From: Stratiformator vulcanicus
Lineage (GTDB): Bacteria; Planctomycetota; Planctomycetia; Planctomycetales; Planctomycetaceae
Length of the DNA stretch: 64,000 bases
Assembly (NCBI RefSeq): GCF_007744515.1
Contig: NZ_CP036268.1
Location: 2,643,712-2,707,711 of the forward strand
Direction of reading: 5' to 3'
Part shown: positions 11,921-29,249 of the stretch, piece by piece
How positions within the stretch are numbered: position 1 is the first letter of the stretch
Layout: each line of letters begins with the position of its first letter
Made by a program: the position numbers and the translations under genes
The notes under the pieces: generated by a model
Database searches by the model: none
What the model was told of the DNA's origin: nothing
Seen by the model: the letters and a program-made list of their open reading frames with translations, nothing else

Positions 11921-12055
11921 GTGCCGCAGGCACAAGAGGCGAACAAGTCACGAGCGACCCGTCACAAATCGAGCGGAGCAATCAAACGGTTCTGAAGTTC
12001 GATGATCGACGATATCCATCACCCAGCAGATTCATCGCCTCGTGTCGCTTCGCGA

Positions 12056-12075: not shown

Positions 12076-12142
12076 CCACCCGTCAGGGGTTGTTAGAAAG
12101 TAGATATCGGCTCAATTCTGTTCGGACGAGTGGATCGACCCG

Positions 12143-12352
12143 ATGTCGCCCCGCACTGCCTTGAGACTTTCACTGGTGTGGTCGCCTTACCTGTTCTTCA
12201 TCGCACTCCCGATCATCGAGGTTGCTTCTGAGCCATCAGTCGTTGAAGACTACCCGCCCTTCATCTTGGCACTCATCTATTTCTTTTGGGCCTACGTCGG
12301 ATTTGTCATCACCGTAGTCGCCTACCACCTGACTCGGCCACGCCAGCATTAA
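12143..12352 (+). CDS. Small two-helix membrane protein
   Basis: A 69-residue protein with two hydrophobic segments (about residues 10-27 and 40-62) separated by a short acidic, proline-containing loop, ending in a basic tail TRPRQH. I do not recognise it. It sits 10 bases before sufS in the same direction, which suggests co-transcription, but nothing shows a role in Fe-S assembly. There is no strong Shine-Dalgarno sequence. Confidence 0.45.
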   Translation: MSPRTALRLSLVWSPYLFFIALPIIEVASEPSVVEDYPPFILALIYFFWAYVGFVITVVAYHLTRPRQH

Positions 12353-12362
12353 ACGGATACGA

Positions 12363-13610: not shown

Positions 13611-13709
13611 ATACAAGCCCGACGCGCCAGCGAGGGACGTTATCTTGTGGCACCCTTTTGAGTGAAGACCCTCGCTCGCGCGTCGGGCTTGTCGATCAGA
13701 GCATTGCAA

Positions 13710-14996
13710 ATGACCTCCGCCGAAATGTCCGCTTCCGTCCAACTCGCCGATCGCGCTCTTTGGGCAAAGGGCGGGGCGATCAGCTATTTGATGCAGCAGG
13801 GGATCGAAAACCCGCAGTGCCTGTCGCTGGCCGCGGGATTTGTTGACGCCTCGACGTTGCCGGTCGACCTCGTCCGCAACGCGACCGATCGGCTCCTCGC
13901 TGAAAACATTCGCGGTCGAGCCTTTTTGCAATACGGCACGACGGGCGGAGCCGAGCGGGCCCGACGCGCGGTGTTGGAACATTTCGCCACGCAGGAAGGC
14001 AAGGCTGTTGCCGATCTCGGTGTCGACCTTTCACGTGTTATTCTGACAAACGGGTCCCAGCAGTTTCTCTCCCTGGTGGCGCAGGTGTTGCTGAATCCGG
14101 GCGACATTTGCCTCGTCGCTGCTCCGACCTATTTCGTGTTTCTCGGCACCATCGCCGGTGTCGGTGCGAAAGCGATCACGGTCGAAACCGATACCAACGG
14201 AATGCGGCCCGATGCGCTCGATGCGAAGCTCGACGAACTCGATGCCGTGGGGCTCGGTGATCGCGTCAAGCTGATCTATTTGGTCAGCAACTTCGAGAAT
14301 CCCAGCGGCTACGTTCTTGCCGCCGAACGTCGGGAACGAATTGTCGAGATTGCGAAGCGCCGCTCGACTTCACATCGCATTCATGTGCTAGAAGATTCCG
14401 CCTATCGCGAGCTGCGCTACGAGGGCGATGACCCTCCGAGCGTGTGGGGCTGCGATCCCGATGGCGAGCATGTGATCTACACGCAGACCTTTTCCAAGAG
14501 CTTCTCCCCCGGGCTTCGCGTCGGCTTTGGCATCGCGCCGACAGAGCTCGTCGCGCCGATCGCGAGTCGCAAGGGCAATGAGGATTTTGGCTCGGCACAT
14601 CTCAATCAGCACATCATAGCCTCAGTCCTCGCCGATGGCTCTTACTATGAGCATGTCAATGAGGTCTGCGAGTCCTATCGCCGCAAGCGCGATGCAATGG
14701 TCGCCGCCGCCCGGGAGTACTTCTCCGATATCGATGGTGTGAGCTGGGTGGAACCGCGGGGCGGGCTTTACGTTTGGATGACGCTGCCGGAGCACTTCGA
14801 TACGTCTTTCGACAGCCGGCTGTTCGAGATCGCCACCCAGAAAGAACTGGTCATGTACGTCCCCGGCGAGCTCTGCTACGGCGGCGAACCGGCGGAGCGG
14901 CCTCGCAATCACATGCGGCTCAGCTACGGCGTGCTGTCTCCCGACGAAATCACCGAAGGCATCCGTCGTCTTGCCAATGCGATTCGATCACTTTGA
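13710..14996 (+). CDS. PLP-dependent class I/II aminotransferase
   Basis: A fold-type I aminotransferase of about 428 residues, similar to the 2-aminoadipate/MocR-domain branch but without a DNA-binding domain. Signatures are LQYGTTGGAERAR, LTNGSQQFLSL, the pyridoxal asparagine in NFENPSGYVL, EDSAYRELRY, and the PLP lysine K263 in TFSKSFSPGLRVGF. The substrate is not known; relatives act on aromatic or branched amino acids. The start is uncertain: ATG at 13710 is my choice, 13725 is possible, and a GTG at 13662 would add 16 residues of unlikely sequence. It follows sufS by 99 bases. Confidence 0.85.
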   Translation: MTSAEMSASVQLADRALWAKGGAISYLMQQGIENPQCLSLAAGFVDASTLPVDLVRNATDRLLAENIRGRAFLQYGTTGGAERARRAVLEHFATQEGKAVADLGVDLSRVILTNGSQQFLSLVAQVLLNPGDICLVAAPTYFVFLGTIAGVGAKAITVETDTNGMRPDALDAKLDELDAVGLGDRVKLIYLVSNFENPSGYVLAAERRERIVEIAKRRSTSHRIHVLEDSAYRELRYEGDDPPSVWGCDPDGEHVIYTQTFSKSFSPGLRVGFGIAPTELVAPIASRKGNEDFGSAHLNQHIIASVLADGSYYEHVNEVCESYRRKRDAMVAAAREYFSDIDGVSWVEPRGGLYVWMTLPEHFDTSFDSRLFEIATQKELVMYVPGELCYGGEPAERPRNHMRLSYGVLSPDEITEGIRRLANAIRSL

Positions 14997-15104: not shown

Positions 15105-16820
15105 ATGCGTATTACGTCGCCGGGCATTCGCTCGATCGGTGGTTTCATCGTAGCGTTTGCGGTCTTCTCCGTATGCGTGTCCTGTGCGGTGCCTGCGGAC
15201 AGGACGCCGGAAATTGACGCCGCGATCCGCCGCGGTCAGGACGCCCTGAAACGTGAGCTGAGTGACGGCGGGGGCAGGGCGGGCGACCGTTCCTTAGCCG
15301 CACTCGCTCTGGTCAAGACGTCGGTCCCAGCCACTGATCCTGCCGTCGCTGCGGTGCTGCAAAACGTTCTGAGTCGTTGCAGAACCGACTATCAGCCCAG
15401 CAACCAGTACTATGCTGCCGGGCTGGAGATGATGCTTCTTGAATCCATCGATCCGAAGCGTTACCGCAATGAGATGAACTCCATTCTTTCGTACCTGCTC
15501 GCAGGCCAGCGGGCTCATGGGGCGTGGTATTATCCGAATCAGACGGGTGGGGGAGACACGAGCATTACGCAGTATGCCGCGCTGGGTTTATGGTCGGCCG
15601 GACGGTCCGGGCTGACTGTCCCATCAACTGCTTGGAGCGATCTCGCTCGCTGGCATGTTGCGACACAATTTCGTGATGGAGGTTTCGCCTATCACCCGCC
15701 GCAGGGACCGTCCAAAGACACGATGTGTCTTGCCGGTGCCGGGACGTTAGCGTTGGCCCTTCGGCAGCTTTATCCGAGTGGAGGCCGCGTCAAAACTCCG
15801 AAAGATCCGATGCCGGCCCCCAAACTCTTTGGCGTTTTGGAAGCTGTCGATTTGGACGAAAATAATAGCGTTCCGACGGGTGGTGGTGTCACCGGGCAGG
15901 CGACGATCTCTAAGACCGATCTTGAAAGATCAAGATCGGCTGCACTTGCCTGGATCGATCGCAACTACACGACGGAATCAACGACGGAGTGGAAGCTCTA
16001 TTACCTCTATACCGTCGAACGGACCGCCGCGTTTGCCGACCGCGATCAGTTTGGAGACGTCGACTGGTATCGCGATGGGGCGGCGCATCTGTTGGCATCA
16101 CAGAAGCCCGATGGCACGTTCATCGGTGGCCATCGGTATGAAAATGAAATTGTTGGCACATCGTTCGCCATTTTGTTTCTGTCGAAGGCCACGGCGAAAG
16201 CGGTCGGACGTCGAGACGTTCCGACGATCGGTGGGGGCCTGTTGGCCGGCGGGCGAGGGCTTCCCACCGACCTCAACGAAGTGCGCGTCGACGGGAGCAA
16301 AATTGAAACGCGAAAGTCGACAGGTCCGCTCGACGACCTTTTGTCACAACTGGAGCGGATTGATACGGGGGATGCCGCCGCCGTCCAACAGGCGATTGTC
16401 GAAAAAGTGAGGCTCGCCGAGCCGGAGAAACTGATCGGCGAAATGGACCGTCTCGTTCGATTGGCCAACGATCCGCGGGATGAAGTGCGGCTGACCGCCT
16501 TCTGGGCCCTTGCTCGGAGCGGCAAAATTCGGATCGCCCCCCTGCTGATTCGCGGCTTATCTGACGATAACGCCGACGTCGCGATTGAAGCTCACAATGG
16601 ACTATGCGTGCTCAGCCGACGACCGGACGGCTTCGGTTTGCCAGCCGGCCCATTCGCCGGCCTCGACGAAGGGGCCGGTGATCGCCTTCGCGCCGAAGCA
16701 CTCAGGCAATGGCAGTCGAAATCGATCAAGGCGTGGCAGGACTGGTATCGGCGTATTCAGCCCTATGATCAAAGAGACGGCCTGTTCGAAGTCGACGACC
16801 CGACGTTTTTGACCCGCTGA
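15105..16820 (+). CDS. Exported prenyltransferase/squalene-cyclase-fold repeat protein with HEAT-like C-terminus
   Basis: A 571-residue exported protein that opens the eight-gene ExbB/ExbD cluster. Residues 1-30 form a signal peptide (VAFAVFSVCVSCAVPA). Repeats of the alpha/alpha-toroid type follow: AHGAWYYPNQTGGGDTSITQ, DGGFAYHPPQGPSKDTM and DGTFIGGHRYENEIVGTSF. These match the prenyltransferase/squalene oxidase repeat family, but the DxDD motif of a cyclase is absent, so a structural or binding role is more likely. A C-terminal stretch (about residues 430-520, with DEVRLTAFWALARSGK) looks like HEAT repeats. The frame is open upstream to 15036, but the ATG at 15105 begins the signal peptide. 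Confidence 0.72.
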   Translation: MRITSPGIRSIGGFIVAFAVFSVCVSCAVPADRTPEIDAAIRRGQDALKRELSDGGGRAGDRSLAALALVKTSVPATDPAVAAVLQNVLSRCRTDYQPSNQYYAAGLEMMLLESIDPKRYRNEMNSILSYLLAGQRAHGAWYYPNQTGGGDTSITQYAALGLWSAGRSGLTVPSTAWSDLARWHVATQFRDGGFAYHPPQGPSKDTMCLAGAGTLALALRQLYPSGGRVKTPKDPMPAPKLFGVLEAVDLDENNSVPTGGGVTGQATISKTDLERSRSAALAWIDRNYTTESTTEWKLYYLYTVERTAAFADRDQFGDVDWYRDGAAHLLASQKPDGTFIGGHRYENEIVGTSFAILFLSKATAKAVGRRDVPTIGGGLLAGGRGLPTDLNEVRVDGSKIETRKSTGPLDDLLSQLERIDTGDAAAVQQAIVEKVRLAEPEKLIGEMDRLVRLANDPRDEVRLTAFWALARSGKIRIAPLLIRGLSDDNADVAIEAHNGLCVLSRRPDGFGLPAGPFAGLDEGAGDRLRAEALRQWQSKSIKAWQDWYRRIQPYDQRDGLFEVDDPTFLTR

Positions 16821-16878
16821 ATCCGGATCGTTGAGAACACTTCCAACCTCTTCAATTTCGATTGAGCAAGGCATTCCA

Positions 16879-17781
16879 TTGGCGACGGTCGACTCACCCG
16901 ACGTAGAGCCAAAACCGCAACCCGTTCTGCGGGTGACGCGATACGATGTGACGCTGGCACTGGTGGTTGCGTTTATCATCTCGCTGGTCGTCGTCGTTCT
17001 TTGGCTGTCCGGGGTGTGGGCCGCGGTTCATGTTTGGCAGAAGGACGAGGCCGTCCCTTTGGAGATGATCACGCTTTCCGGAGGATCGGAAGACGGCACG
17101 CCAGACGAGACCTTCGACTTGGAAAGTCCCTACGAGGAGATACCGGACCCGACCCTCGCCGAGCTTCGCTCCGATGAGACGGAGATTGAACCGCTGCTTG
17201 AGGCCGTCGTCGAACTGTCTGACGTGGCGACGCAACAAGCCGAGCAGCAACTGGCGCTCGACGCGCGGAGCGCGGGCAATCCCGGCAGCGCCGACGGAAC
17301 CGGCAACAAGGCCTTGGGCGTCGGGGACGGCGACAGCGGCGTGCCGCGGGAGCAGCGTTGGTTTATTCGGTTTGCCGATGGTGCGACTTCGGAGGAATAC
17401 GCCCGTCAATTGGACTTCTTCGGGATCGAGATCGGTGCGCTGGTGCCGGGCGGGCGATTAGCGTATCTCAGTAGTCTCACGTCACCTTCTCCTACCGTGC
17501 GAATGGTCAATTCCGGGGCGGGAGAGAATCGACTCTACATGACGTGGCAGGGAGGGGGACGCAAAAGTGCCGATCTCAAACTACTGCGGAAAGCGAACGT
17601 CGATGTCGGATCGGGAACGATCTTCCACTTCTATCCGCCTCGGACCGAGGCGCTGCTTGCGCAACTGGAAAAATCTTATCGAGGTGCCTCACCGAAAGAC
17701 GTCCGTCGGACCTACTTTGTCGTCCAACGCAAAGGCTCCGACTTCGAATTCGCGGTCACCAGACAAACGTATTTTCGCTGA
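16879..17781 (+). CDS. Single-pass inner-membrane protein of the ExbB/ExbD cluster (TonB-like position)
   Basis: A protein of about 300 residues with a short cytoplasmic head, one membrane helix (VTLALVVAFIISLVVVVLWLSGVW) and a long periplasmic part. The segment after the helix is acidic and proline-poor, unlike the PE/PK-rich linker of TonB. The last 140 residues, from REQRWFIRFADGATSEEY, form a compact alpha/beta-looking domain that I do not recognise. The topology and the position directly before exbB suggest a TonB-like or accessory energy-transducing role, as inference only. A TTG at 16879 has AAGG 7 bases upstream; a TTG at 16831 would add 16 residues. Confidence 0.65.
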   Translation: MATVDSPDVEPKPQPVLRVTRYDVTLALVVAFIISLVVVVLWLSGVWAAVHVWQKDEAVPLEMITLSGGSEDGTPDETFDLESPYEEIPDPTLAELRSDETEIEPLLEAVVELSDVATQQAEQQLALDARSAGNPGSADGTGNKALGVGDGDSGVPREQRWFIRFADGATSEEYARQLDFFGIEIGALVPGGRLAYLSSLTSPSPTVRMVNSGAGENRLYMTWQGGGRKSADLKLLRKANVDVGSGTIFHFYPPRTEALLAQLEKSYRGASPKDVRRTYFVVQRKGSDFEFAVTRQTYFR

Positions 17782-17876
17782 CAGAATTGCACCGGAAAAT
17801 TTTCGCGGGAAGACTTTCACTGTACAGGAAGCGTCGTTCAACAAACCTGACGAGGCATGAGCCTCCAGACCGAAAA

Positions 17877-18542
17877 ATGAATCAACAAATATTCGACATT
17901 GCCGCGACCGTCATCTACACAGCGATGGCCGCGGTTGCCGTTTACGGCGTGTTCGTGGTCGTGCTGCTGATCCGACGGATCGGCCAGAAACAATTCCGCA
18001 ATGCCGCTCAGGGAGACGCGTTTCTCGAAGAGATCACCGAGCATCTGCGACGGCGCGAATATGAGGCCGTCGTCGAGAAATGCGACCGCCCGCCGTACTG
18101 GAGCAAGGCGGTTCCCCAGTTGATGATGATGGCAACAACGAATCGGGGCACGCCACTTCCTAAGCTCAAGCGCAATCTCGCTGAAAAATTCGAGCGAGAC
18201 GTGCTGGCCGATCTCGAGTATCGCACGAGTTGGATTACGACCATCGTCAAGACGGCCCCGATGCTCGGGCTGTTGGGAACCGTCGTGGGGATGATCGCGG
18301 CGTTCGGTAAAATCGCGTCGATGCAGCAGCAGGGGGCGACGAATCCGGCCGACCTTGCCCAAGACATCAGCTTCGCCCTGGCCACGACGGCCGTGGGACT
18401 GTCGATCGCGATTCCGCTAGTGCTGGCGGGGAACGTGTTGCAGGTCAAAATCGGCAAGCTGCAAGACTCGGTGCAGGACTATCTGGGTCGGTTTCTTGAT
18501 GAGTTTGCCGAGTCGATCGGAACCGGGGGAGGTCCGTCATGA
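17877..18542 (+). CDS. exbB: MotA/TolQ/ExbB-family proton channel protein
   Basis: A 221-residue ExbB/TolQ family protein. It has an N-terminal membrane helix (about 10-33), a cytoplasmic domain with LAEKFERDVLADLEYR, and two more helices in the conserved PMLGLLGTVVGMIAAF (about 122-140) and ALATTAVGLSIAIPLVLAG (about 165-185) blocks. It would form a proton-driven pump with ExbD. The stop overlaps the exbD start by 4 bases, so the pair is coupled. The ORF is open far upstream, but the ATG at 17877 follows the previous gene by 95 bases and gives the expected length. Confidence 0.92.
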   Translation: MNQQIFDIAATVIYTAMAAVAVYGVFVVVLLIRRIGQKQFRNAAQGDAFLEEITEHLRRREYEAVVEKCDRPPYWSKAVPQLMMMATTNRGTPLPKLKRNLAEKFERDVLADLEYRTSWITTIVKTAPMLGLLGTVVGMIAAFGKIASMQQQGATNPADLAQDISFALATTAVGLSIAIPLVLAGNVLQVKIGKLQDSVQDYLGRFLDEFAESIGTGGGPS

Positions 18543-19048
18543 TCGGTTCCCCACCCGTCGCCCCGGTCGACGCGGGGCCGAACGAAGCGGACGACGAAGC
18601 CTATGTGCCCAAACGTCGCAAGCTGGGCGAGGCCGATCTCGACATCACGCCGATGATTGACGTCACGTTTTTGCTGCTGATCTTCTTTATGGTCACCTCG
18701 ACCATGCAGGAGACCGATTCGACCGACATTCCCCCGGCACGTTTTGGTGTCGGAACGGAAACGGGCGAGTCGATCATGATTACGCTGAGACGTCCGATAT
18801 CGGAGGGAGACGAGCCGACCGTCGTTTTTCCCGGTGGGGATGAGCGAGCTTTGTCGGAGGCCGTCGAAGCCGAGACGCTCAAAAACCTCGTCGAAGCGGG
18901 CTTGAATGAAATACCGCGGACCGAGCGGGTCATCGTCAACGCGGATCGAGATCTGCCGTTCGGCGACGTCAGACGACTGACCTCCGGTTTGTCCGACTTT
19001 GAAGAAATTCGCCTGTTCTTCGGGGTTCAGGATCCCGCGTCCCGTTAG
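18539..19048 (+). CDS. exbD: Biopolymer transport protein ExbD/TolR family
   Basis: A 169-residue ExbD/TolR protein. The cytoplasmic head is followed by LDITPMIDVTFLLLIFFMVTSTM, in which the membrane aspartate (D of MIDVTF) is the proton-carrying residue of the family. A periplasmic domain follows with VIVNADRDLPFGDVRRL, typical of the ExbD plug domain. It overlaps exbB by 4 bases. A second ExbD-like gene with a zinc ribbon follows 25 bases later, so this system has two distinct ExbD subunits. Confidence 0.92.
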   Translation: MIGSPPVAPVDAGPNEADDEAYVPKRRKLGEADLDITPMIDVTFLLLIFFMVTSTMQETDSTDIPPARFGVGTETGESIMITLRRPISEGDEPTVVFPGGDERALSEAVEAETLKNLVEAGLNEIPRTERVIVNADRDLPFGDVRRLTSGLSDFEEIRLFFGVQDPASR

Positions 19049-19073
19049 ATCGTCCTTGGGTTCCAGAAGTAAT

Positions 19074-19679
19074 ATGTCCTTCAAATTTCGTTGCGGCTCT
19101 TGTGATGCCGTGCTTCGGATCGGACCTCGCTACGCCGGGCAACGGGTCCGCTGCGGCGAGTGCGATGCGATTTTGAAGGTGCCGACGGAGGCGAGCGGGC
19201 AAGCGAAAAAGCCCGCGTCCAGCTTCAGCGTTCACGATGCGCTCGAAGGCGGTTTTGCACTCCGCCCCCGCGCGAAGAAAGAGGACGATTTCGATCTGAC
19301 GCCGATGGTCGACGTGACCTTCTTGCTGCTGATCTTCTTCATGATTACGGCCTCGTTTAGCGTGCAAAAAACGCTTGAGGTCCCGCCGCCCGATCCTGAG
19401 GACAAGGGAGCGTCCCAGGCGATTCCGCTCGAAGATTTGCAGGACGACTCGGTCATTGTGAGGATCGAAGCGGGCGATCGCGTGTTCGTCGACGATGAGC
19501 CGATCAATTCGATCGATGATCTGTCCGTACGGCTTTCCGAATTAATGCGGGAAGACCGGAAGACAGAAATGGTGATTCAAGCCACAGATCAAGCCCGGCA
19601 TGAAGCGGTCGTGATCGCTTACGACGCCGGCAACGAAGTCGGAATGCAGCGAATCCGCATTGCAAATCCCGACAGTTGA
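19074..19679 (+). CDS. ExbD/TolR-family protein with N-terminal zinc ribbon
   Basis: A 201-residue protein fusing a cytoplasmic zinc ribbon to ExbD. Cysteines C7-x2-C10 and C27-x2-C30 (FRCGSCDAVLRIG and RCGECDAIL) form a rubredoxin-like knuckle of the kind seen in many planctomycete and delta-proteobacterial proteins. FDLTPMVDVTFLLLIFFMITASF gives the ExbD helix with its proton-carrying aspartate. The periplasmic half ends near residue 195. The true start is the ATG at 19074; a frame open from 18999 is only shadow. The ribbon sits on the cytoplasmic side, so it could bind metal or a partner protein. Confidence 0.85.
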   Translation: MSFKFRCGSCDAVLRIGPRYAGQRVRCGECDAILKVPTEASGQAKKPASSFSVHDALEGGFALRPRAKKEDDFDLTPMVDVTFLLLIFFMITASFSVQKTLEVPPPDPEDKGASQAIPLEDLQDDSVIVRIEAGDRVFVDDEPINSIDDLSVRLSELMREDRKTEMVIQATDQARHEAVVIAYDAGNEVGMQRIRIANPDS

Positions 19680-19751
19680 ATTTCGACGAAGAAGAGACAA
19701 AACGACCCCGTGACGACAGCCTGTTCCCGTATCTCGTGACCGACGATCCTG

Positions 19752-22700
19752 ATGGCAGAGATTGAAATTATTCGCGATGGCCAATCACAGGACATCTTGC
19801 CGATTTCTCGTCGGCAACCGCTCGCCGTCGGTCGAAAAGACATCAGCGATATTTGCTTGGAAGGTTCTGACGTTCCGCCGATGCATAGCCGCATTCGCTG
19901 GTCGGGAAAAGGTTACGAAGTCACGGCTGCCACGTCCGAAGGAATCGAAGTCAACGGAACGGTCGTCCGCAAAAAACTGCTCGACAATGGCGACGTGATT
20001 CGCGTCGGATCGTTCGATCTCAAATTCACGCGCGGCATTCGTAAAGCAACCGCGCGACGCCTCAAAGGGAAGATGAAGCCGGCGCCGAAAGTCGAAGAGC
20101 CGGAAGTGCAGATCGACAAGAGCGGCTTTCCAGTCGCAGAGGTCGTGATCGCCGGCAAGTTCACTGGCCCAAATGGATCCGCGACCCAAAAGTCGACGCC
20201 CGACATTGGAGAAGAAGGTGAGAGCGGTTTCGCCGACGATTTTGAAGAGGATTGGATCGACGACGAATCGGATGCCGCGCCGAAGACGGAGGGAGCGCCC
20301 GTCGACGCAGAGTCGTCATCCACTAAGCCGATTTCCAAGCGGGCCCGTCGCCCCGGAGAAGAAGACGTTTTAAGGTCGCCCGTCGTGCTGGGCAGCGTGG
20401 GGACGGTACTCGCCCTATTCTTGGCCGCGGCTGCGATCTGGTTCGTGATCGGTCGAGAGTCTTCAACGGCGTTGCTCGATCAGGCGCAAGCCGATCTCGA
20501 TGTCGGTCGGTACTCTCAGGCGATCCGCGGCTTCGAACAATTCTTACTTGAGTACGCAACCGACTCTCGGGCGTCGGAGGTTCGGCTGCGACTGGGGTTG
20601 GCGCGAGTGCAAAGCGTCGTTGAATCGACCGCCCCCGACTATCCGAAAGCGCTCGAACTGCTGGAGCGATTTCATCGAGACAACCGAGATCGCCCCGGCT
20701 TCGACGATGTCCGGCCCGAGGTCGCGCGGCTTTCGCTCGCGATTGCCGAGGGAGCAGCCGCCGGCGCCATTCGTGACGGTGATCGCGAGCTGTTGGAGAC
20801 CGCGCAGGTCGCCGCCGCCACGCACGACCGATTTGTTGACGCTGAAGCCCGCGATTCGGCCGTGCGGAAGCGCCTTACTTCTGAGATCACCGAAGCCGAG
20901 TGGTCGGCCCGTCGACGCGAGTTCTTTGAGTCGCAAACGGCGTCCATTCGAAATCAGATCGAGGAGGCAAAATTTGTCGAGGCCTATCAGGCTCTGAGCG
21001 AACTGCTTGCTCGCTATCCGGAATTGGCGACACGGCCGGAGATCGAAGCGATCCGAGCGGAGGCGAAGGCGGCAGAGGCGATGTTGGTTGAAATCAAATC
21101 GGACGATCCCGTCACATCAATCGGCACCGATGAAATCCAACTTCCGTCGACGGTGCTATCGTCTCGCCTGCGTGGCCAAACGAACGAAGTCTCGGACGGC
21201 CGCACGATTCCGGTTATCGGCTCGCAGGCAGTCTTCGGCATCGATGCATTGACTGGCGCGGTCACGTGGCGCACCGGATTGGCGCGCCGACCGCCTTTTG
21301 CACCAGTGGAGTTCTTTCGGCCGGAGCCTTCGGTATTAGTCTTCGCGCCGGTCGCCGGCGATTTGATGCTCCTCGATGCAGGGACCGGCAAGTCGGTCTG
21401 GCGTACGCCACTGAATGGTCAACCGGTCGGGGAGCCGCTGCTATTGCCGCGGCGTGTCGTGCTGTTAATGGACTCCCAAGAGCTCGTCATCGTTGATCTG
21501 CGGACAGGTGATCTGGAGACGCGCCTTTCGTTTCCGCAACCGGTTGTGGGCGGTGCCGCACTGATGCCGAGCGGGCAGGAGGTCTTCGTGCTGGGCGAGA
21601 GCGAGACCGGTTATGTCGTCACGCTCGATCCCCCGGCTTGCGAAGAAGTCGTCGCGGTCGGTCACGCTCCAGCTTCGATCGAGTACGCACCGTTGACGAT
21701 GGGCTCATTACTTTTGCTCTGCATGAATGACCGCGTGAAGCAGTCTCAGTTGGTCGTCTTGCGAGTCCTCGATGGGAAGATCGACGAGAAACCGGCTGCG
21801 ACGCTTCGCTTGGAAGGGCGAATCAATGGTCGCCCCCTTTTGCGTGGCAACAAGCTGTTCGTCCCTACCGACGGCGAGCGGCTCAGCGCATTCATCGTTT
21901 CCGATAACATCGAACAACCGGTACTCACCGCCGGGCCGAGTGTTCAACTCCCCGACCCACAGCCCGGACCAGTCGAGCTGGTCGCCGGATCGGGCGGACG
22001 TGTCTGGATGGCCGGCTCCTCTCTGCGTCAACTCACATGGACGGCAGACCGATGGGAGATCGACCCGAGTTCAATCGCTTCGGGCCGCCATACTCAATCG
22101 CCGCAGACGCTGGGTGAAGACCTATTCGCCACTCGCCAGGTGCCGGCGAGTTCGGCGATCTTTGTGACAAGAGCTGACCGAACGACGATGCAGCCTTTAT
22201 GGCGGACCGTCATCTCGTCACCCGTGTTAGCGACCTCAGTGTCCGACCGCCTGTTGACGGTCGTCACGACTGCCGGTGAAATCTTTCGAATGCGGGTCGA
22301 CGAAATCGGCACGAGCGCGGCGATCGATCGGTCGCAACCACTGCCGGAGTTCGACGAATTCGGCCGTCCTCTCATTGTCTCTCATGACGCCGGCGGCAAC
22401 TCCGTGATCCTGCAGCGTGGCGAGTCGTCTCGAATTTGGATCATCGACAGTTCGGGCCGAGTCCGTTCGATGCTCCAAGCCGATGTGTCTATCGACGTTC
22501 CGCCAGTCGTGACGCGCAATTCGGTTGTCGTTGCCAAGCCCGGTACGCTGACTATCGCGCGGCTGAACGACCGGGTCATTCCCGATCGAGTCGATTTTCA
22601 ACTACCGGTCATCGATGGCGAAACTGCCGATTGGGCGCGACTGATGTCTGCACCGGGAGGGCAGGTTGTGGCCATCGACACCGCGGGTGTCATTCGCGTA

Positions 22701-23264
22701 TTTGAGTCACCGGCGCAGTCCGGCGGTTCGCTGGTCGAAATTGCGACCGCACAATTCACATCGCCGATTTTGGCCGGCTTCAACGGTGACGGAAGCAACC
22801 TGCTGGTGGCCGACGGACGAACGGTTCTGTCACTCGCGTTCCCTGAACTCCGGTCGCGAAAACAGGCTCAGTGTACCGCGGAGGTTTTGGGAACTCCGAT
22901 GTCGATCGGTTCGCTGGTCGTTGCGGAACTTGCCGACGGATCGGTCCAGGCAGTCAAACAAAATGCGATCGAGACGGGGCCTTTGTGGCGAGTCGAAATT
23001 GGCGACGCCGGGCTCGCCGGTCATCCGTTTTTCACCGAAGATGTCATCGGTCTCGCCGGTCGCGACGGTGGGGTCACGTTCGTCAACGCCGACGACGGTC
23101 GACTACAGCGACGCCTTGATTTGGGACAACCGCTTGACGGTGATCCCATTCGCTTCGACACGATGACAGTTCTGACCACGATGGACGGCACGCTGCTTAA
23201 ACTGAGCGACGAGTCGACTGGCACGGCCGGCGAGCAAAGCCCCTCGGGAGATGAGGTGGATTAA
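19752..23264 (+). CDS. FHA domain-transmembrane-beta-propeller protein
   Basis: A 1170-residue transmembrane protein. Residues 1-95 form a cytoplasmic FHA domain with the phosphothreonine-binding pattern VGRKDISDI, HSRIRW and VNGTVVRK. An acidic linker follows (about 110-200), then one helix at about 209-234. The periplasmic part has a TPR-like helical region (about 240-440, with LDVGRYSQAIRGFEQFL) and then a long beta-propeller of PQQ/WD40-like blades (about 480-1160; DALTGAVTWRTGL, DAGTGKSVWRTPL). FHA domains read Ser/Thr phosphorylation, so kinase input to the ExbB/ExbD system is inferred. It overlaps the next gene by one base (TAATG). Confidence 0.82.
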   Translation: MAEIEIIRDGQSQDILPISRRQPLAVGRKDISDICLEGSDVPPMHSRIRWSGKGYEVTAATSEGIEVNGTVVRKKLLDNGDVIRVGSFDLKFTRGIRKATARRLKGKMKPAPKVEEPEVQIDKSGFPVAEVVIAGKFTGPNGSATQKSTPDIGEEGESGFADDFEEDWIDDESDAAPKTEGAPVDAESSSTKPISKRARRPGEEDVLRSPVVLGSVGTVLALFLAAAAIWFVIGRESSTALLDQAQADLDVGRYSQAIRGFEQFLLEYATDSRASEVRLRLGLARVQSVVESTAPDYPKALELLERFHRDNRDRPGFDDVRPEVARLSLAIAEGAAAGAIRDGDRELLETAQVAAATHDRFVDAEARDSAVRKRLTSEITEAEWSARRREFFESQTASIRNQIEEAKFVEAYQALSELLARYPELATRPEIEAIRAEAKAAEAMLVEIKSDDPVTSIGTDEIQLPSTVLSSRLRGQTNEVSDGRTIPVIGSQAVFGIDALTGAVTWRTGLARRPPFAPVEFFRPEPSVLVFAPVAGDLMLLDAGTGKSVWRTPLNGQPVGEPLLLPRRVVLLMDSQELVIVDLRTGDLETRLSFPQPVVGGAALMPSGQEVFVLGESETGYVVTLDPPACEEVVAVGHAPASIEYAPLTMGSLLLLCMNDRVKQSQLVVLRVLDGKIDEKPAATLRLEGRINGRPLLRGNKLFVPTDGERLSAFIVSDNIEQPVLTAGPSVQLPDPQPGPVELVAGSGGRVWMAGSSLRQLTWTADRWEIDPSSIASGRHTQSPQTLGEDLFATRQVPASSAIFVTRADRTTMQPLWRTVISSPVLATSVSDRLLTVVTTAGEIFRMRVDEIGTSAAIDRSQPLPEFDEFGRPLIVSHDAGGNSVILQRGESSRIWIIDSSGRVRSMLQADVSIDVPPVVTRNSVVVAKPGTLTIARLNDRVIPDRVDFQLPVIDGETADWARLMSAPGGQVVAIDTAGVIRVFESPAQSGGSLVEIATAQFTSPILAGFNGDGSNLLVADGRTVLSLAFPELRSRKQAQCTAEVLGTPMSIGSLVVAELADGSVQAVKQNAIETGPLWRVEIGDAGLAGHPFFTEDVIGLAGRDGGVTFVNADDGRLQRRLDLGQPLDGDPIRFDTMTVLTTMDGTLLKLSDESTGTAGEQSPSGDEVD

Positions 23265-25735
23265 TGCGCGTTCAGACATCGCTTTCAGCGCTTGCAAATT
23301 CTTGCGTCGACCGGCTTTTCCGCGATCGATTTAAGCAGTCGCTGCAGCTCGGTTTCTTTTCGTTAGCACTGCTAACTCTTTCAATTTGCTTCCCAAGCTA
23401 TGCCCGATCGCAAGAGGACGCTGACTCCGAAGCGCAGCAATCAGAGTTACCCAAGTTTGACGAGTTGGAGCTACCGCCAACCGAGAAGTTGTTGAGCAAC
23501 GAACGTCGCGATTGGATCGTTTTAAAGTCCGGACGGGTTCTGGTCGCCGAACCGGTTTATCCGCGCCCGAACACGCTCGAAGAATTGAAGGTTGCCGCCG
23601 ATAAGGTGCGAGCAAATCCGCGATTGCGGGTCACCGATGCCGGACGTGAGGAAATTCGGAATAACTCCAACATCGCCGTGATACTGCCCGGCTCGGGAGA
23701 GGTTGCCGAATATCTGCTCCCGGTTGCCCGAGTCGAGCAGGTGCTTCACCACGAAGACCTTATGCTCAGGCGGGCCCAAGCATTGCTTGCCGAGCCAACG
23801 CGGGAGTCGATTCGCGAAGCATTCGAGCTGCTATTCGTACTTGGACGACGAACTCCCGATTGGCCGGGACTGACTGCACTTGAAGAGCAGGTCCTCATTG
23901 CCGAAGCCCGCGTGATGTTGGAAGACGGCCGGCCATCCGAAGCATTGATTCGAGCCGAAGACCTTTACGCCCGGAATCCCAATGCAATGGGATTGGAGAA
24001 ATTGGCCGATGAGATCGCCACGAAGATTCTCGACAGCGCCATAGCGGCAAATGAATATCGGCGGGCCCGTTACTATCTGGCTCGGCTGTCAAGCACCTGG
24101 GAAGTTCTTCCCGCCGTGAGGCGTATCAGCGCAAACTTAATTCAAAAATCGGAAGGCTATCGTGATGCGGCGATCGCGGCGGACGACGCAGGTGATCACG
24201 CGAAAGCCGCCGCCCAAATTGAACTGGCGGCATTAAGTTGGCCACGGCTCGACGAAGTCGCCGAAATGCATCGCCGTTTGACGACGCGATTTCAACGGCT
24301 GCGCGTCGCAGTACCTCGGCTATCGGCTGGTTCGAATCGGCGGTTCGTACTCGATAACGCAGATATTCGCGTCCATCGATTGACCCAGGTCCCCGTCTTC
24401 GAGGTCATTCGACTCGAGGGGCAACCGATTTTTCGATCAAAATTGCTCGACAACTGGCTGCCAACCGATTTGGGCCGAAAGGCCGTCTTCAAATTTCGTT
24501 CGACGACTGCAGCTTGGTCCGCACATGAGCCCATGACGGCCGGAGAAGCGTGGCAGGCTGTGGCGAAACTGGTCGCCCCTTCGGCACGGGCTGAGGACAC
24601 GCGATTCGCGGCTGCGGTATCGCTCGTTCGCACTCAAGGAAAACGAGAACTGGAACTGGGATTTACCCGCATCCCGCTTTCGACGGAGGCACTAATGTCT
24701 CCACGAAGAGGAACTCGATCAGGCGGACAGCTTTCAAAATCTGCATTCCGTGAGTTCGAGCGATCGAGGCAATCGGCACGGTACGGGCGAGTTCGGATTG
24801 AACCCGATAATGCCAGAACTTTTCATGTTGCTGAAGTGACCGAGGCCGCCTTCCCGAGCTTCGCTGACGCAGCTCAGGCATTTGATCGGGACGAGGTTGA
24901 CGCCATCTCAAACGTCCCGCCGTGGGCTTTGGCTCGTTATCAAGATGACGAGTCTTGCACGGTGTCGAAGTCCGATGTTCCTGATGTCCACTTTCTGCAG
25001 TTCAATCCCCGATCGCCGCGCTTAAAAAGCCCGGAGCTTCGCCGTGCGTTAATTTATGCGCTTGATCGTCCGCGAATGGGTCGTGAAATTCTCGGACGCG
25101 GTCGCGACTCTAATTCGATTCGAACCGCTGTTGCCCCATACTCTCGATCCAGCATCGCCGCTGACATTCGCATCGAACCGCGTCCCTACGATCGACTCCT
25201 CGCGTTATCTTTGTCGTTGTCCGTAAAGTCATCGAGACCTGACGATAAGGTCCGATTAGTCCTCGTTCGTCCGGATGTCGCGCCGATTGTTGAAATCGTC
25301 GAGCAAGTCGCCGAGGCGTGGAATTTCTTAGGAGTCGATCTTGAGATCGTCGACGACACGACGTTGCTCGAAATTGACAGCGCGGAATGGGACATCGTTT
25401 ATCGCTGCCTGCCGATCGTCGACCCCGTTAGTGAACTTTCATCGCTGCTATCGCTCGACCCGCAGGTTCGGCTGAAATCGCTCATGCCGTTATCTGATCG
25501 TCTACGGCAGGCGTTGCTGAGACTGGAAAGGGCCTCCGATCCAGATTCGGCACTTCAAGTTGCTAAAGAAGTGCATCAATTAATGTATCACGAAGTCCCG
25601 CTCATTCCGTTGTTCGAGACAGACCACTATTGGATTTACTCGAGACGGCTACGCAACAGACCGGAACGTTCTGTCGACTTCTACCAAGACTTAGATCGCT
25701 GGGAACTCCGGCCTACATACCCGCAAATTTTCTAA
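23264..25735 (+). CDS. Exported protein with C-terminal family 5 solute-binding fold
   Basis: An exported protein of 823 residues. A signal or anchor segment lies near residues 28-48 (LGFFSLALLTLSICFPSYA). Residues 60-330 are helical, with TPR-like features (ALLAEPTRESIREAFELL, ARVMLEDGRPSEALIRAEDL). From about residue 360 the protein follows the family 5 solute-binding pattern of oligopeptide-binding proteins: LLDNWLPTDLGRKAVFKFR, EPMTAGEAW, VHFLQFNPRSP, RRALIYALDRPRM, and a C-terminal EVPLIPLFETDHYW. No ABC permease or ATPase is encoded here, so it is probably a binding or scaffold module of the ExbB/ExbD machine. It is translationally coupled to the FHA gene. Confidence 0.72.
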   Translation: MRVQTSLSALANSCVDRLFRDRFKQSLQLGFFSLALLTLSICFPSYARSQEDADSEAQQSELPKFDELELPPTEKLLSNERRDWIVLKSGRVLVAEPVYPRPNTLEELKVAADKVRANPRLRVTDAGREEIRNNSNIAVILPGSGEVAEYLLPVARVEQVLHHEDLMLRRAQALLAEPTRESIREAFELLFVLGRRTPDWPGLTALEEQVLIAEARVMLEDGRPSEALIRAEDLYARNPNAMGLEKLADEIATKILDSAIAANEYRRARYYLARLSSTWEVLPAVRRISANLIQKSEGYRDAAIAADDAGDHAKAAAQIELAALSWPRLDEVAEMHRRLTTRFQRLRVAVPRLSAGSNRRFVLDNADIRVHRLTQVPVFEVIRLEGQPIFRSKLLDNWLPTDLGRKAVFKFRSTTAAWSAHEPMTAGEAWQAVAKLVAPSARAEDTRFAAAVSLVRTQGKRELELGFTRIPLSTEALMSPRRGTRSGGQLSKSAFREFERSRQSARYGRVRIEPDNARTFHVAEVTEAAFPSFADAAQAFDRDEVDAISNVPPWALARYQDDESCTVSKSDVPDVHFLQFNPRSPRLKSPELRRALIYALDRPRMGREILGRGRDSNSIRTAVAPYSRSSIAADIRIEPRPYDRLLALSLSLSVKSSRPDDKVRLVLVRPDVAPIVEIVEQVAEAWNFLGVDLEIVDDTTLLEIDSAEWDIVYRCLPIVDPVSELSSLLSLDPQVRLKSLMPLSDRLRQALLRLERASDPDSALQVAKEVHQLMYHEVPLIPLFETDHYWIYSRRLRNRPERSVDFYQDLDRWELRPTYPQIF

Positions 25736-25857
25736 CCGTTGAGACAGTTCGTCCTGAACGATTCTGCTATGAGCGTACTGCCTCCTGAATTATCTATTTT
25801 CCATGCGGAACGTGTTCTACGGAACCGTTTTCCGAACCTTAATCGCACAGGCAAGAA

Positions 25858-27396
25858 ATGATGAAGAGCCGGGCAGCACTAGTCGCCTGCATTGCGATGA
25901 TCGGCGCGATTGATAGTCGCGCTGGTGCCGAAGATCTTGATGCGGTTACCGTTCCTTACGAGTTCAAAGCGTACGCTGTTACCGTCTCCATCAATATTGA
26001 ACCTCAACTTCGTCCGTTCATTGATGACTCGCGTTTGTTGCGAGACTTGAATCAATCGCTGCTGCGGACATTCGGTGGGCATTTTAGAACAAACATAACG
26101 ATCGGAGCGCCGTCCGAGATCGACGAAAGTTCAAAGTCGGCTGCCGGTGATGACCAAGAACCATCTCAGTCCGATTCAAACGAGGACTCAGACAAAATAT
26201 ATGAAGTCCTCGTTCGCAGTTCTCATCCGTTCGCGGAGATCGCGGTGGAGGAAATCGATGCGGCGACCGGGACAAGGGGCGGAAATATCCGGCGAACAGT
26301 CGTGCAAGAAGCCGTTGGCGAAACGATCGTCGAATTAATCGCCGCGACTTTTCGGCCGATCTTTCTCATCGAAGAAGTGAACGAGGACGGCTTCATTTTG
26401 TTGAGGCAGCGGGCCGGAACGCTGATGCCGCCCGACCCGGCCGCAATGCCGGCGGGGGTCGGCACGTTCGTGCGACCGTTCTATCGAATGACGACGCGTG
26501 ATGGCGAATTGCGCGAGATTCGCGAAATTCCTTGGACCTATTTGCAATTGGCGTCGCCCTCCCGCGGCATTCGGAGTGCTTCCCCGATTTCCGCGCTCCG
26601 CCGACCGATCGGGCCGCGGCGTCGGGGGAGTGTGACTGCGGTCGCGATTCTTGTGAGACCTTCGCATCCCGAGACGACCTTTAAGATCGTCGAATCGGCT
26701 CCGTCCGAATTCGTATTTGCTGGGCGAGAGGTCAATATCGCACCGATTGCTGAGGAGACCGCAACGAGTGGCGACAAGACTGCCGAACCTAATGTTGTTG
26801 TTGCGCCAGAATCTGAGCGAGTCTTGATCACGTCCCGCCGGGGGGAAGTCATCATTCCTCAAACCTCTAAGCGACGGCCGGTCTGGGCGACGGTCCGCAG
26901 TGGATCGGCTACTTTGGCCAAGGTGCCAATTTTCCCAGGTGGTAAGCAAGTGGCCGTATTGGAACTCCCTTCAGACGAAGTCCGATTAAAATTCGAAGCG
27001 GATATTGCGGCCCTTTCTGTCGAATTGACTGACAATGTCGCCCGCCGCGCAGCCTTGTTGACGAAGGCACGACGGGCCGGCCGATCCGATCAATTTCAGC
27101 AGGCAGAGCAGTATTTGAACGATGCCGAGCGTTTGCCCGATTCAGCTCAGTTTGCCAGCAGAGCCGAAACATTGGAGGGGTTGGCGGTGCGGGCGGCGAA
27201 TAAACAAAATAATCGTGTCGCCGTTGCGCGAATTCGTGCAATGACACGTCAGGTCATCGGCGTGATCGACAAATATTTGGGAGAGGATGCCGTTCGCGTT
27301 GTTCGCGAAGAAGTTTCGGAATTAAAGCAAACGGCTATCGACGTCCGGCAACCACAAACCCGTCCACCCGACACAATACGGCAAATTGAACCGTAA
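25858..27396 (+). CDS. Exported hypothetical protein, last gene of the ExbB/ExbD cluster
   Basis: A 512-residue protein with a signal peptide (residues 1-24, ending RAGA before EDLDAV). I do not recognise a family. The N-terminal half looks like mixed alpha/beta (VTVSINIEPQLRPFIDD, LLRTFGGHFRTNITIG); an acidic stretch lies near residues 85-110, and residues 300-510 contain DxxR-rich helical repeats including EQYLNDAERLPDSAQFA. It is separated from the solute-binding gene by 122 bases with no terminator that I can see, and has the same direction. The placement suggests a periplasmic partner of the upstream proteins, as inference. Confidence 0.6.
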   Translation: MMKSRAALVACIAMIGAIDSRAGAEDLDAVTVPYEFKAYAVTVSINIEPQLRPFIDDSRLLRDLNQSLLRTFGGHFRTNITIGAPSEIDESSKSAAGDDQEPSQSDSNEDSDKIYEVLVRSSHPFAEIAVEEIDAATGTRGGNIRRTVVQEAVGETIVELIAATFRPIFLIEEVNEDGFILLRQRAGTLMPPDPAAMPAGVGTFVRPFYRMTTRDGELREIREIPWTYLQLASPSRGIRSASPISALRRPIGPRRRGSVTAVAILVRPSHPETTFKIVESAPSEFVFAGREVNIAPIAEETATSGDKTAEPNVVVAPESERVLITSRRGEVIIPQTSKRRPVWATVRSGSATLAKVPIFPGGKQVAVLELPSDEVRLKFEADIAALSVELTDNVARRAALLTKARRAGRSDQFQQAEQYLNDAERLPDSAQFASRAETLEGLAVRAANKQNNRVAVARIRAMTRQVIGVIDKYLGEDAVRVVREEVSELKQTAIDVRQPQTRPPDTIRQIEP

Positions 27397-27444: not shown

Positions 27445-28938
27445 ATGAGCGTTTGCATTCGCTTCAATTTCGTCATTATTTGTGTGGGCGCCCTACTCGG
27501 TGGGTATACCTCTTTCGCAGTTGCAGTTGATCGTCCGAACGTGGTACTGATCGTCAGCGATGATCAGCGCGTCGATACGATCGCGGCGCTGGGCAACGAG
27601 ATCATCAAGACGCCACATCTTGACTCGCTCGTTCAAACCGGCACGACGTTTGAGAACGCCTACTGTCAGGGTTCGATGTATGGAGCGGTCTGCGTTTCCA
27701 GCCGGGCGATGTTGCTGTCCGGCGAGAATTTGTGGAAGGCGGATAAACATTTAACAGGACAGACCACGCTTCCCGAACACTTTCGCAACGCCGGTTATGC
27801 GACTTTTGGCTGCGGCAAATGGCACAACGGGCGAGAATCGTTCACGAGAAGTTTTAATGCCGGCGGAGCCATTTTCTTTGGTGGAATGAGTGATCACTTC
27901 GCCGTCCCGGTTCATGACTTCGATCCAGAAGACCGCTATCCCAAAAAGTCGAAGCGAATCGGAACGACACACTCGAGTGAATTATTTGCCGATGCGGCTG
28001 TGTCGTTTCTTAAAGGTCGCGAAGACGCGGAACAGCCCTTCTTTCTCTATCTGGCCTTTACAGCTCCGCATGATCCGCGGACACCTCCGGCACCTTATGA
28101 CACGATGTACGATCCGGCCGACATGCCGCTGCCGCCGAATTTTTTGCCTGAGCATCCGTTTGATAACGGCGAGATGAAAATTCGGGACGAGAAGTTGGCG
28201 GAGTGGCCCCGCACGCCCGAAGTCGTCAAAGAACATCTCGCCGCGTATTACGGGATGATCTCGCACATGGATGCGCAGATCGGACGAGTCTTAAAAAAGC
28301 TCGATGAGAGCGGCGAGCGGGAGAACACATTGATCGTATTCCTTAGCGACCACGGCCTCGCAATCGGCAGCCACGGATTAATGGGGAAGCAAAACCTCTA
28401 CGAGCACAGCATGAAGGCCCCGTTGATTTTTAGTGGTCCGGGTGTGGCTAAAAACCGGCGAGTCGATAATCTTTGCTACCTCCACGACGTTTTCAGCTTG
28501 GTTCTGACGCGGGCCGATGTGTCGGGCCGGTCCGTCGAGTCCCACAAGCTTGCCCGAGAAGTTTTCCCGCCGCTAAATACCAATGAAATGCAGAGGCGAC
28601 TTCTGCGGTCACGGAGCGACGAAGCTGTGCCCGCATTCTTGCGCGAGTATCGCCGGGGCGTCGAACTCGCGTACAAGGATGAGCAGTTTTCCTACCGACA
28701 GGGAAAATGGAAAATCGTCGTCTATCCTGAGCAGAGGCTCGTCCAATTATTCAATTTAGAAGCCGATCCCAATGAGACGACGAACCTTGCCGGAGAGAAA
28801 GACGCACATTTTCACTTATCAAATCTCTGGAATCATTGGAATGACTCTCAGGTACTCTTTGATTCCAACTCAACGAAGAATCGCTTCAAGCTGGCACTGA
28901 ATGATCTCAAACCCGCCCCGGACGGCAAACGCCCATGA
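27445..28938 (+). CDS. Sulfatase (arylsulfatase superfamily)
   Basis: An exported sulfatase of 497 residues with a signal peptide (about 1-28). Metal-binding aspartates occur in LIVSDDQRVDT (D39 and D40). The catalytic motif is C83-V-S-S-R87 in AVCVSSRAMLLSG; C83 is the cysteine that would be oxidised to formylglycine. The usual motif has Pro or Ala at the third position, and Ser here is a mild variant. Later signatures are GCGKWHNGRESF, FLYLAFTAPHDPR, SDHGLAIGSHGLMGKQNLYEHS. The substrate is unknown. The stop overlaps the next gene by 4 bases, which indicates coupling. No formylglycine-generating enzyme is in the window. Confidence 0.9.
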   Translation: MSVCIRFNFVIICVGALLGGYTSFAVAVDRPNVVLIVSDDQRVDTIAALGNEIIKTPHLDSLVQTGTTFENAYCQGSMYGAVCVSSRAMLLSGENLWKADKHLTGQTTLPEHFRNAGYATFGCGKWHNGRESFTRSFNAGGAIFFGGMSDHFAVPVHDFDPEDRYPKKSKRIGTTHSSELFADAAVSFLKGREDAEQPFFLYLAFTAPHDPRTPPAPYDTMYDPADMPLPPNFLPEHPFDNGEMKIRDEKLAEWPRTPEVVKEHLAAYYGMISHMDAQIGRVLKKLDESGERENTLIVFLSDHGLAIGSHGLMGKQNLYEHSMKAPLIFSGPGVAKNRRVDNLCYLHDVFSLVLTRADVSGRSVESHKLAREVFPPLNTNEMQRRLLRSRSDEAVPAFLREYRRGVELAYKDEQFSYRQGKWKIVVYPEQRLVQLFNLEADPNETTNLAGEKDAHFHLSNLWNHWNDSQVLFDSNSTKNRFKLALNDLKPAPDGKRP

Positions 28939-29249
28939 GCGCTCCCATTCAAATCGTCAACGGCATCACGATGACTCCCGAGGGGGAGGTCTCGGTCGAA
29001 TTGGGCCTTGAAGAAACGCTGTTCGATATTGCAGGTGCGATGGAAGCCCGAACCGAATTGCCGGTTGATCCGAATCATGTGCTGGCCGCAGTGATTCTTG
29101 CCTCCCGTGTCGGTCATGTGACGCCGCTGTACACGCTCAAGTCGGACGACCAGGAACTCATCGCGCTGCTCGACACCCATATTCGCGTTGTGTTTGACAA
29201 GTACGGCGGTCTGGTTTGCGAAGACGAGGACCTCTCGAACGAAAGCTGA
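28935..29249 (+). CDS. Small conserved hypothetical protein coupled to the sulfatase
   Basis: A 104-residue acidic, soluble protein with no signal peptide or membrane helix. It overlaps the sulfatase stop by 4 bases (ATGA), so the two are expressed together. I do not recognise a family. Helical composition (LEETLFDIAGAMEAR, LAAVILASRVGHV) and a C-terminal acidic tail suggest a small cytoplasmic protein; an effect on the sulfatase itself would be odd, since that enzyme is exported. Confidence 0.55.
   Translation: MSAPIQIVNGITMTPEGEVSVELGLEETLFDIAGAMEARTELPVDPNHVLAAVILASRVGHVTPLYTLKSDDQELIALLDTHIRVVFDKYGGLVCEDEDLSNES

Follow-up and report, generated by a model that had tools for sequence, protein, structure and literature searches.

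An eight-gene ExbB/ExbD block conserved in Planctomycetia, a candidate proton-driven and kinase-linked machine of the cell envelope

The described systems closest to the gene block considered here are built on motors of the TolQ/TolR or ExbB/ExbD kind. In Tol-Pal, such a motor, powered by the proton motive force (PMF), is combined with a single-pass transducer, TolA, and with TolB, Pal and CpoB; one survey calls this system largely reduced in planctomycetes (PMC8871954). The AglRQS-Glt machinery of Myxococcus has one TolQ-like and two TolR-like subunits, the bitopic FHA protein GltG and TPR elements. A zinc ribbon is carried by GltJ of the same organism. The Myxococcus FHA protein, which has a transmembrane (TM) segment, is a two-hybrid partner of AglR (PMC3169522). 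Loci of the Planctomycetes-Verrucomicrobia-Chlamydiae (PVC) group combining a TolQ-like protein, two heterologous TolR-like proteins and a vWA transducer are described as being of unknown function (PMC12204202). Here we analyzed a 64,000-nucleotide stretch (the window) of the genome of Stratiformator vulcanicus, a member of the Planctomycetaceae, which consists of one 5.2-Mb contig (NZ_CP036268.1, positions 2,643,712 to 2,707,711), and found eight genes, designated g1 to g8, that may specify a further machine of this kind:

g1, 15105..16820, + strand: exported alpha/alpha-toroid (squalene-hopene cyclase / alpha-2-macroglobulin thioester-domain-like) with HEAT repeats; often adjoins g2
g2, 16879..17781, + strand: single-pass protein in the TonB position; no family matched
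g3, 17877..18542, + strand: ExbB/TolQ-type proton-channel subunit
g4, 18539..19048, + strand: ExbD/TolR-type subunit, first of a heterologous pair
g5, 19074..19679, + strand: cytoplasmic zinc ribbon and ExbD/TolR-type subunit
g6, 19752..23264, + strand: cytoplasmic FHA-like head, one TM segment, periplasmic TPR-like stretch, PQQ/BamB-type propeller
g7, 23264..25735, + strand: exported; N-terminal helical-looking region, then a family-5 solute-binding domain
g8, 25858..27396, + strand: exported; predicted TolB-N/FlgT-like region, transthyretin/CnaB-like domain and helical bundle

The open reading frame (ORF) list of the window confirmed these eight + strand ORFs (15105-27396), in agreement with a preliminary description made from the sequence alone, which had noted eight co-directional genes with one 4-base overlap (g3/g4) and one 1-base overlap (g6/g7). 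The start codon of g2 is TTG, and an alternative TTG upstream, at 16831, is possible. We give an even chance to the proposal that g1-g8 encode a proton-driven machine that connects the inner membrane with the periplasm and the outer layers, is switched by kinase signalling and serves, most likely, envelope upkeep; on the best reading it works like Tol-Pal or Agl-Glt and is a member of neither.

The motor is the part most easily recognized. The g3 product matched MotA_ExbB in Pfam (1.4e-24) and, as its best NCBIfam family, TolQ (8e-20, below the cut-off of that family), while g4 and g5 matched ExbD in Pfam (2.4e-14 and 2.1e-25, respectively), g5 having in addition a CxxC...CxxC motif that was kept in 42 of 54 orthologues. 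Residues T135 and T171 of g3 were invariant (55/55), as were aspartates D41 of g4 (54/54) and D80 of g5 (55/55), positions which we take to be those of the proton path in the ExbB/ExbD family. In a tree of both ExbD-type subunits, the g4 sequences (52) and the g5 sequences (54) fell into distinct clades (support 0.999), and this clean separation indicates that the heterologous pair is ancient. Five ExbB-type genes, g3 included, were detected in the host genome at E<=1e-5. The invariant ExbB/ExbD residues, together with a gene order maintained across the class Planctomycetia, support the earlier proposal of an energised envelope system. The alignments used for the various genes, each with the window sequence added, comprised 30 sequences for g2 (the complete set available), 33 of 38 for g8, 31 of 36 for g6, 31 of 40 for g7, 10 of 10 for g1 and 18 chosen rows for g3.

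Local signals did not delimit the block. Between 13500 and 29600, 20 terminator-like sites were found compared with 18.8 in shuffled sequences, and 1 promoter-like site compared with 4.9, so that neither scan gave a signal above shuffled sequence and the absence of a visible terminator, pointed out in the preliminary description, is weak evidence for a single unit. The same-strand run also extends past g1-g8 in both directions, with SufS and an aminotransferase upstream, and a sulfatase, a small ORF and GuaA downstream of g8. Since local signals were at chance level and the run continues, the limits can be defined only by comparison, and it is the conserved gene order in other genomes on which the assignment of g1-g8 to one block rests.

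Adjacency was counted at E<=1e-20 in three sets of loci (L041-L080, L111-L120 and L225-L243), the denominators being the loci in which either gene of a pair was assigned. The first set was fetched around g7 and consisted of 39 loci of Planctomycetaceae plus L064 of family f2 (labels such as f2, f77, f101 and f104 are those of this analysis). Outside these counts were L121-L127 and L136-L140, fetched because g2 was apart from g7 or duplicated; L244 was a 100-base filler, and some loci ended at contig ends (e.g., L065, L067, L071, L234 and L236). In the 40 g7-centred loci, g7-g8 were adjacent in 38/40, g6-g7 in 36/40, g5-g6 in 33/36, g4-g5 in 31/34, g3-g4 in 33/33, g2-g3 in 29/33 and g1-g2 in 10/30; contiguous runs of g2-g8 were present in 26 of the 40 and of g1-g8 in 10, some loci being cut by contig ends. 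The 10 g2-centred loci of other families all had g6-g7 and g7-g8 adjacent, and 8 had g2-g8 unbroken. A set of 19 loci from 18 genomes spanning families (L225-L243) included 4 with unbroken g2-g8, 4 with g2-g6-g7-g8 minus the motor genes and 5 with at most one assigned gene. Adjacency of g1-g2 in the three sets was 10/30, 8/10 and 11/17. Thus, the order g2-g8 recurs across families (unbroken in 26/40, 8/10 and 4/19 loci), as the preliminary description had suggested checking. No family of the 966 flanking ORFs was shared by more than 14 loci, which argues that the g2-g8 order is not background synteny; the search for a ninth partner thus yielded none of wider occurrence, the best candidate being a kinase, mostly in other families.

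Scattering of the genes in other planctomycetes, which had been named beforehand as a sign against a single system, was observed in part. It was noticed that 1) g1-g2 move as a pair in L121, L122, L136 and L138, 2) g2-g6 are together at another site in L137, 3) g7-g8 are kept together with the remainder elsewhere in L042, L061 and L063, 4) clusters devoid of the motor genes occur in L113, L118, L231 and L239-L241, and 5) g2 is alone in L123, L124, L125 and L139. When other genomes were searched for the separated parts, g2 was found in 8/8 queried, located away from g7 in four (G304, G279, G293 and G213) and cut by a contig end in G218, and 7 of 9 possessed an ExbB of the cluster type (E 1e-54 to 5e-97), the next paralogues matching at 5e-28 or weaker.

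The g2 product has a short cytoplasmic end and one TM segment (residues 21-50). An acidic linker, in which GG-EDG and ESP segments are conserved, leads to the C-terminal domain (157-300), which is conserved as well. With 35-56% identity to the window copy, g2 ranks with the better conserved parts outside the motor. None of 70 g2 sequences contained the SxHxLxS motif. Among 31 members no informative Pfam family, TonB_C or vWA was matched, and NCBIfam gave no family. The preliminary description had proposed fold searches for the products of g2 and g8. In the case of g2 (model pLDDT 74 overall, 79-96 in most of the C-terminal blocks), Foldseek returned no match at E<=0.001 for the C-terminal domain and VIA-align gave no fold, a blank that does not show a new fold. 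With one TM segment, its place in the order and no SxHxLxS, g2 has the position and topology of TonB/TolA without the motor-binding motif. Several g2 genes occurred in unusual surroundings. L123 and L124 (genus g167) have g2 without recognized g1, g3-g5, g7 or g8 nearby and with a weak, short g6-like ORF. A diverged second g2-like gene (G160 C1:1383550-1384386, L125) lies about 34 kb from the g2 of the block, with the other genes not nearby. Tandem g2 copies (L243:6496-8442 and L242:11924-14073) hint at paired transducers, and L243 also has a second g5-like ORF.

In g6, Pfam recognized FHA (2.2e-7) and a PQQ_2 propeller (8.8e-18) on either side of one TM segment (about 211-229), while TPR-type matches were weak and below the curated cut-offs of Pfam and NCBIfam. 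A single TM segment was predicted in 60 of 61 orthologues, and it is preceded by an RPGE motif. A domain scan of 32 of the 37 g6 sequences, with an FHA threshold of E 1e-3, found PQQ_2 in 32/32 and FHA in 20/32, an acidic tail taking the place of FHA in some Planctomycetaceae. The FHA motif for phosphothreonine binding consists of GR, S-x-x-H and N; in the heads from Planctomycetaceae the arginine was present in 11/27, the serine in 2/27, the histidine in 22/27 and the asparagine in 26/30 aligned. As a phosphothreonine reader, therefore, the g6 FHA failed at the residue level, and the earlier suggestion that phosphorylation is sensed through FHA was not borne out by these residue counts or by the presence of the domain in 20/32 orthologues.

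A different connection to phosphorylation emerged from other families, in which 17 loci have a helical domain of about 60 residues as the g6 head. Against 5,780 locus ORFs, a profile of this head matched the 17 source g6, one ORF of L237 that sits between g2 and g7 and is probably a shortened g6, and seven ORFs with kinase motifs (E 3e-6 to 0.06); profile-profile comparison with the N-terminal region of eight kinases, rows selected for adjoining the block, gave a probability of 96. The g6 of L232 (G604; 10173-14603) has the helical domain followed by a complete Pkinase domain (9e-50) before the propeller part. A gene with kinase motifs is convergent beside g8 in 9 of the 61 loci with g6 (L048, L064, L112, L114, L115, L116, L120, L230 and L231; the Pfam check covered L114), a placement that on its own is weak evidence. 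Taken together, the head swap and the convergent kinases make it likely that the block is linked to serine/threonine-kinase signalling. The L232 protein itself may be a putative receptor kinase with its propeller outside, encoded within a motor block.

The remaining products are exported. g1, with an N-terminal hydrophobic stretch, matched HEAT_EZ in Pfam (1.8e-6) and weakly SQHop_cyclase_N (E 0.0077), and its profile matched squalene-hopene cyclase (5e-13), alpha-2-macroglobulin (A2M; 7e-4) and HEAT designs (1.3e-31) in PDB. g7 matched SBP_bac_5 (2.7e-14), with the domain at about 390-805 behind a region of about 340 residues without a family; its profile covered residues 390-805 in the alignment to NikA and 539-699 in that to DppA (4.8e-14). 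No permease or ATPase of the ATP-binding cassette (ABC) type was found in g1-g8 or the five flanking genes scanned, a genome-wide search not having been made. For g8, Pfam and NCBIfam gave no family, FlgT did not appear among the Pfam families listed for 34 members, and no PDB sequence was matched below E 0.1. In its AlphaFold2 model (pLDDT 87), the fold search proposed earlier pointed to a TolB-N/FlgT-like region, all four Foldseek matches at E<=0.001 being TolB chains, with low TM-scores. Residues 35-267 of the predicted fold aligned to the LPHT ring chain 8z5n (Z 8.8, 198 aligned, root-mean-square deviation (rmsd) 8.5) and to FlgT 3w1e (Z 7.2, 187 aligned, rmsd 9.8), residues 271-371 (domain 269-372) to a transglutaminase-family fragment and other CnaB/transthyretin-like domains (3e8v, Z 9.5), and residues 373-491 (bundle 373-494) to a helical bundle (8zah, Z 10.5); weak resemblance to CsgG, a pore, was also seen. 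Because Z values of this magnitude can reflect common arrangements, these matches are a hint of fold and not of membership.

The block appears to be a property of one class. g7 was present in 163 of 170 Planctomycetaceae genomes, and in 129 of the 130 good ones. A phylum-wide search with a single g7 sequence found it in 8 of 149 genomes, almost only Planctomycetaceae, and a g2 profile built from 31 sequences showed a wider spread: it hit 320 of the 397 Planctomycetia genomes, or 287 when only the 339 good ones are counted, and 145 of the 185 genera. In a phylum-wide sample, this profile matched 41 of 392 genomes, 28 of them Planctomycetaceae, 12 from other families of the class and 1 from outside, the last match being weak and partial (1.8e-6). 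The named loci matched include Gimesia, Schlesneria, Planctomicrobium and Fuerstiella titles. Judged by these matches, g2 would be a gene of the class with almost no sign outside Planctomycetia. Against such a limit, 3 of the 80 named g2 loci kept had titles from outside the class, all of them metagenome bins. Their titles were Alphaproteobacteria (L208) and Candidatus Kuenenia (L198 and L215), which could reflect misbinning or real spread.

Like Tol-Pal, the block combines a TolQ/TolR-type motor driven by the PMF with a single-pass protein placed as a transducer, and it has a periplasmic TolB-N-like fold as modelled for g8 and, separately, a propeller with a TPR-like part in g6. It differs in having two heterologous TolR-like proteins and no SHLS motif, no recognized TolA C-terminal domain, no TolB by sequence and no Pal among the eight genes, and in adding a kinase-linked cytoplasmic head, a protein with the solute-binding fold and an exported toroid. 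AglRQS-Glt is similar in its one TolQ-like and two TolR-like subunits, its bitopic FHA protein and its TPR elements, whereas in the block the zinc ribbon is on an ExbD (g5), the FHA protein has a propeller, no barrel is found and the head is exchanged for kinase modules in other families. A comparison of g6 with GltG confirmed the FHA plus TM arrangement, but the C-terminal part was a PQQ propeller in 32/32 and not TonB-like. From the PVC loci with vWA transducers the block is distinguished by the absence of a recognized vWA on g2, the lack of SHLS and the other partners (FHA/kinase-propeller, solute-binding protein, FlgT-like protein). As for the H ring of Vibrio, residues 35-267 of the g8 model align to FlgT, but g8 has an extra CnaB/transthyretin-like domain and an extra helical bundle, and the ExbB/ExbD block around it is non-flagellar. 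Among the papers listed in searches of the open full-text literature, no description of this gene set turned up; work on Rhodopirellula baltica mentions a salinity-induced exbB/exbD pair (PMC2754498).

These comparisons suggest the following scheme. By homology, a pentamer of g3 (ExbB/TolQ) would enclose a heterodimer of the ExbD proteins g4 and g5 (5:2 stoichiometry) and the motor would move g2, the helix of which would dock beside it while the C-terminal domain reaches the periplasm. g6 would be a second membrane-anchored partner, its head letting serine/threonine-kinase signalling recruit or gate the machine and its TPR-propeller part joining g7, g8 and g1 in the periplasm, where g8, with its predicted TolB-N/FlgT build, would probably be the component nearest the outer membrane or cell wall. 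The complex, the order of contacts, the outer-membrane target and the job are all inferred. Most likely, the job would be energised envelope coupling and upkeep in budding growth, similar to that of Tol-Pal, in bacteria where TolB was not found: TolB_N (PF04052) matched 0 of 118 genomes of the class and 3 of 14 control genomes, including Escherichia coli.

Several observations weigh against this scheme. TolB gave weak matches in 7 of 199 other planctomycete genomes, all outside the class; as it is thus missing from most other planctomycetes too, its absence does not track the block, and a replacement of Tol-Pal is plausible, not demonstrated. A trade of Tol-Pal for the block within the phylum was sought and not found, TolB being rare outside the class as well. 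For Pal (TIGR02802), none of 98 class genomes had a match passing the strict cut-off, but 51 had one below it, including a match of 4.4e-12 in the host genome away from the block, which leaves room for a Pal-like protein. In addition, no outer-membrane barrel or lipoprotein was recognized within the eight genes, lipobox-like sequences being found in 1/33 g1, 3/63 g7 and 0/60 g8; the predicted match of g8 to FlgT lacks sequence support and spans two domains at an rmsd of about 9; and two genomes (G504 and G569) had no cluster-type ExbB, with best matches of 1.7e-25 and 1.1e-21. In families f101 and f104, g2 matches were weak (3e-7 to 6e-21), and five of their loci had such a g2 with g6-g8 not nearby, one of them (L228) with motor-type genes on the opposite strand next to g2.

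The same data can be read in other ways. It is conceivable, if somewhat unlikely, that the genes share a transcript while their products work as two or three separate machines (g1-g2; the motor; g6-g8), as the block splits along these lines in the g1-g2 pairs, the separate g7-g8 and the motor-less clusters described above; the recovery of g2 in 8/8 and of cluster-type ExbB in 7/9 genomes, the recurrence of the full order in several families and the break of L137 between g6 and g7, off those lines, speak for one machine. An idea we regard as unlikely is that the block powers the crateriform structures, press studs from outer to inner membrane, together with the energy-dependent macromolecule uptake that has been tied to them in speculation. 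A little less likely again is its more specific form, in which the block is the energised core of these structures and the hetero-ExbD motor drives a g6-g7-g8 assembly under kinase control via the swappable head, so that g8 would be a FlgT/CsgG-like ring part and g7 would read captured polymer fragments. Excerpts from one study report crateriform structures linking the two membranes in Planctopirus limnophila and dextran uptake by Gemmata obscuriglobus that stops with CCCP, a link between the two being speculation of its authors (PMC5394234); in parts of two others, the Phycisphaeraceae described are without such structures and divide by binary fission, and the Planctomycetia described bud (PMC8882080, PMC7783415). 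The distribution fits in outline, since the block is widespread in Planctomycetia with one weak outside match in the sample, and Phycisphaeraceae fall outside the class holding it; the resemblance of g8 to a FlgT ring part and weakly to the CsgG pore, and the solute-binding fold of g7 with no adjoining permease, would also agree. However, this is correlation only, and presence or absence by class amounts to a single evolutionary event, which makes the agreement coarse. We know of no proteome of a crateriform structure. Family f101, with only a weak g2 and with g6-g8 not nearby in four loci, no profile search for the other parts having been made in it, may be an exception. According to the introduction of one paper, crateriform structures occur in every planctomycete (PMC12402505).

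It seems improbable that the block drives gliding or surface adhesion in the manner of AglRQS-Glt, by pulling on an adhesion complex of holdfast, stalk or rosettes. The motor make-up is the same, the Myxococcus set likewise includes an FHA-TM protein, a two-hybrid partner of AglR (PMC3169522), and a GltG profile weakly touched g6 (0.0065), but g6 ends in a propeller and not in a TonB-like domain, and no barrel or GltD/E/C was recognized among the eight genes, the remaining Glt set not having been searched genome-wide. We consider it highly improbable that the block energises TonB-dependent receptors as a Ton system, g7 passing the substrate onwards. A single-pass protein placed like TonB, a solute-binding protein and ExbB/ExbD would suit such a system, and of the TonB-like role first ascribed to g2, position and topology held; the absence of SxHxLxS (0/70) and of a permease in the eight or five flanking genes did not agree with it. 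Receptors of PF00593 gave 0 matches in the host genome and were found in 29 of 98 genomes of the class, and on receptors the Ton explanation is largely refuted.

The proposed envelope-coupling machine would have some wider consequences. A proton-driven block conserved across many families of the class provides a short list of eight testable genes that appear to build an undescribed machine, one that may underlie an envelope function found only in the budding Planctomycetia. If the proposal is correct, this is a TolQ/ExbB-family motor whose membrane partner swaps FHA, kinase-associated and kinase domains, and would provide a direct evolutionary hint that motors of this type can be switched by protein phosphorylation.

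Neighbouring genes were also noted. In six loci (L064, L112, L114, L115, L120 and L230), a family on the opposite strand lies upstream of the block; the example inspected resembles an exported TPR-type protein and could be a related partner. Downstream in the window, the sulfatase (27445-28938, likewise + strand) begins 48 bases past g8 and could be part of one transcript with it in this genome; the only similar gene among the 40 loci was a weak match on the opposite strand in L058. The ORF that follows (28935-29249, 104 codons), without a match in Pfam or NCBIfam, overlaps the end of the sulfatase by 4 bases.

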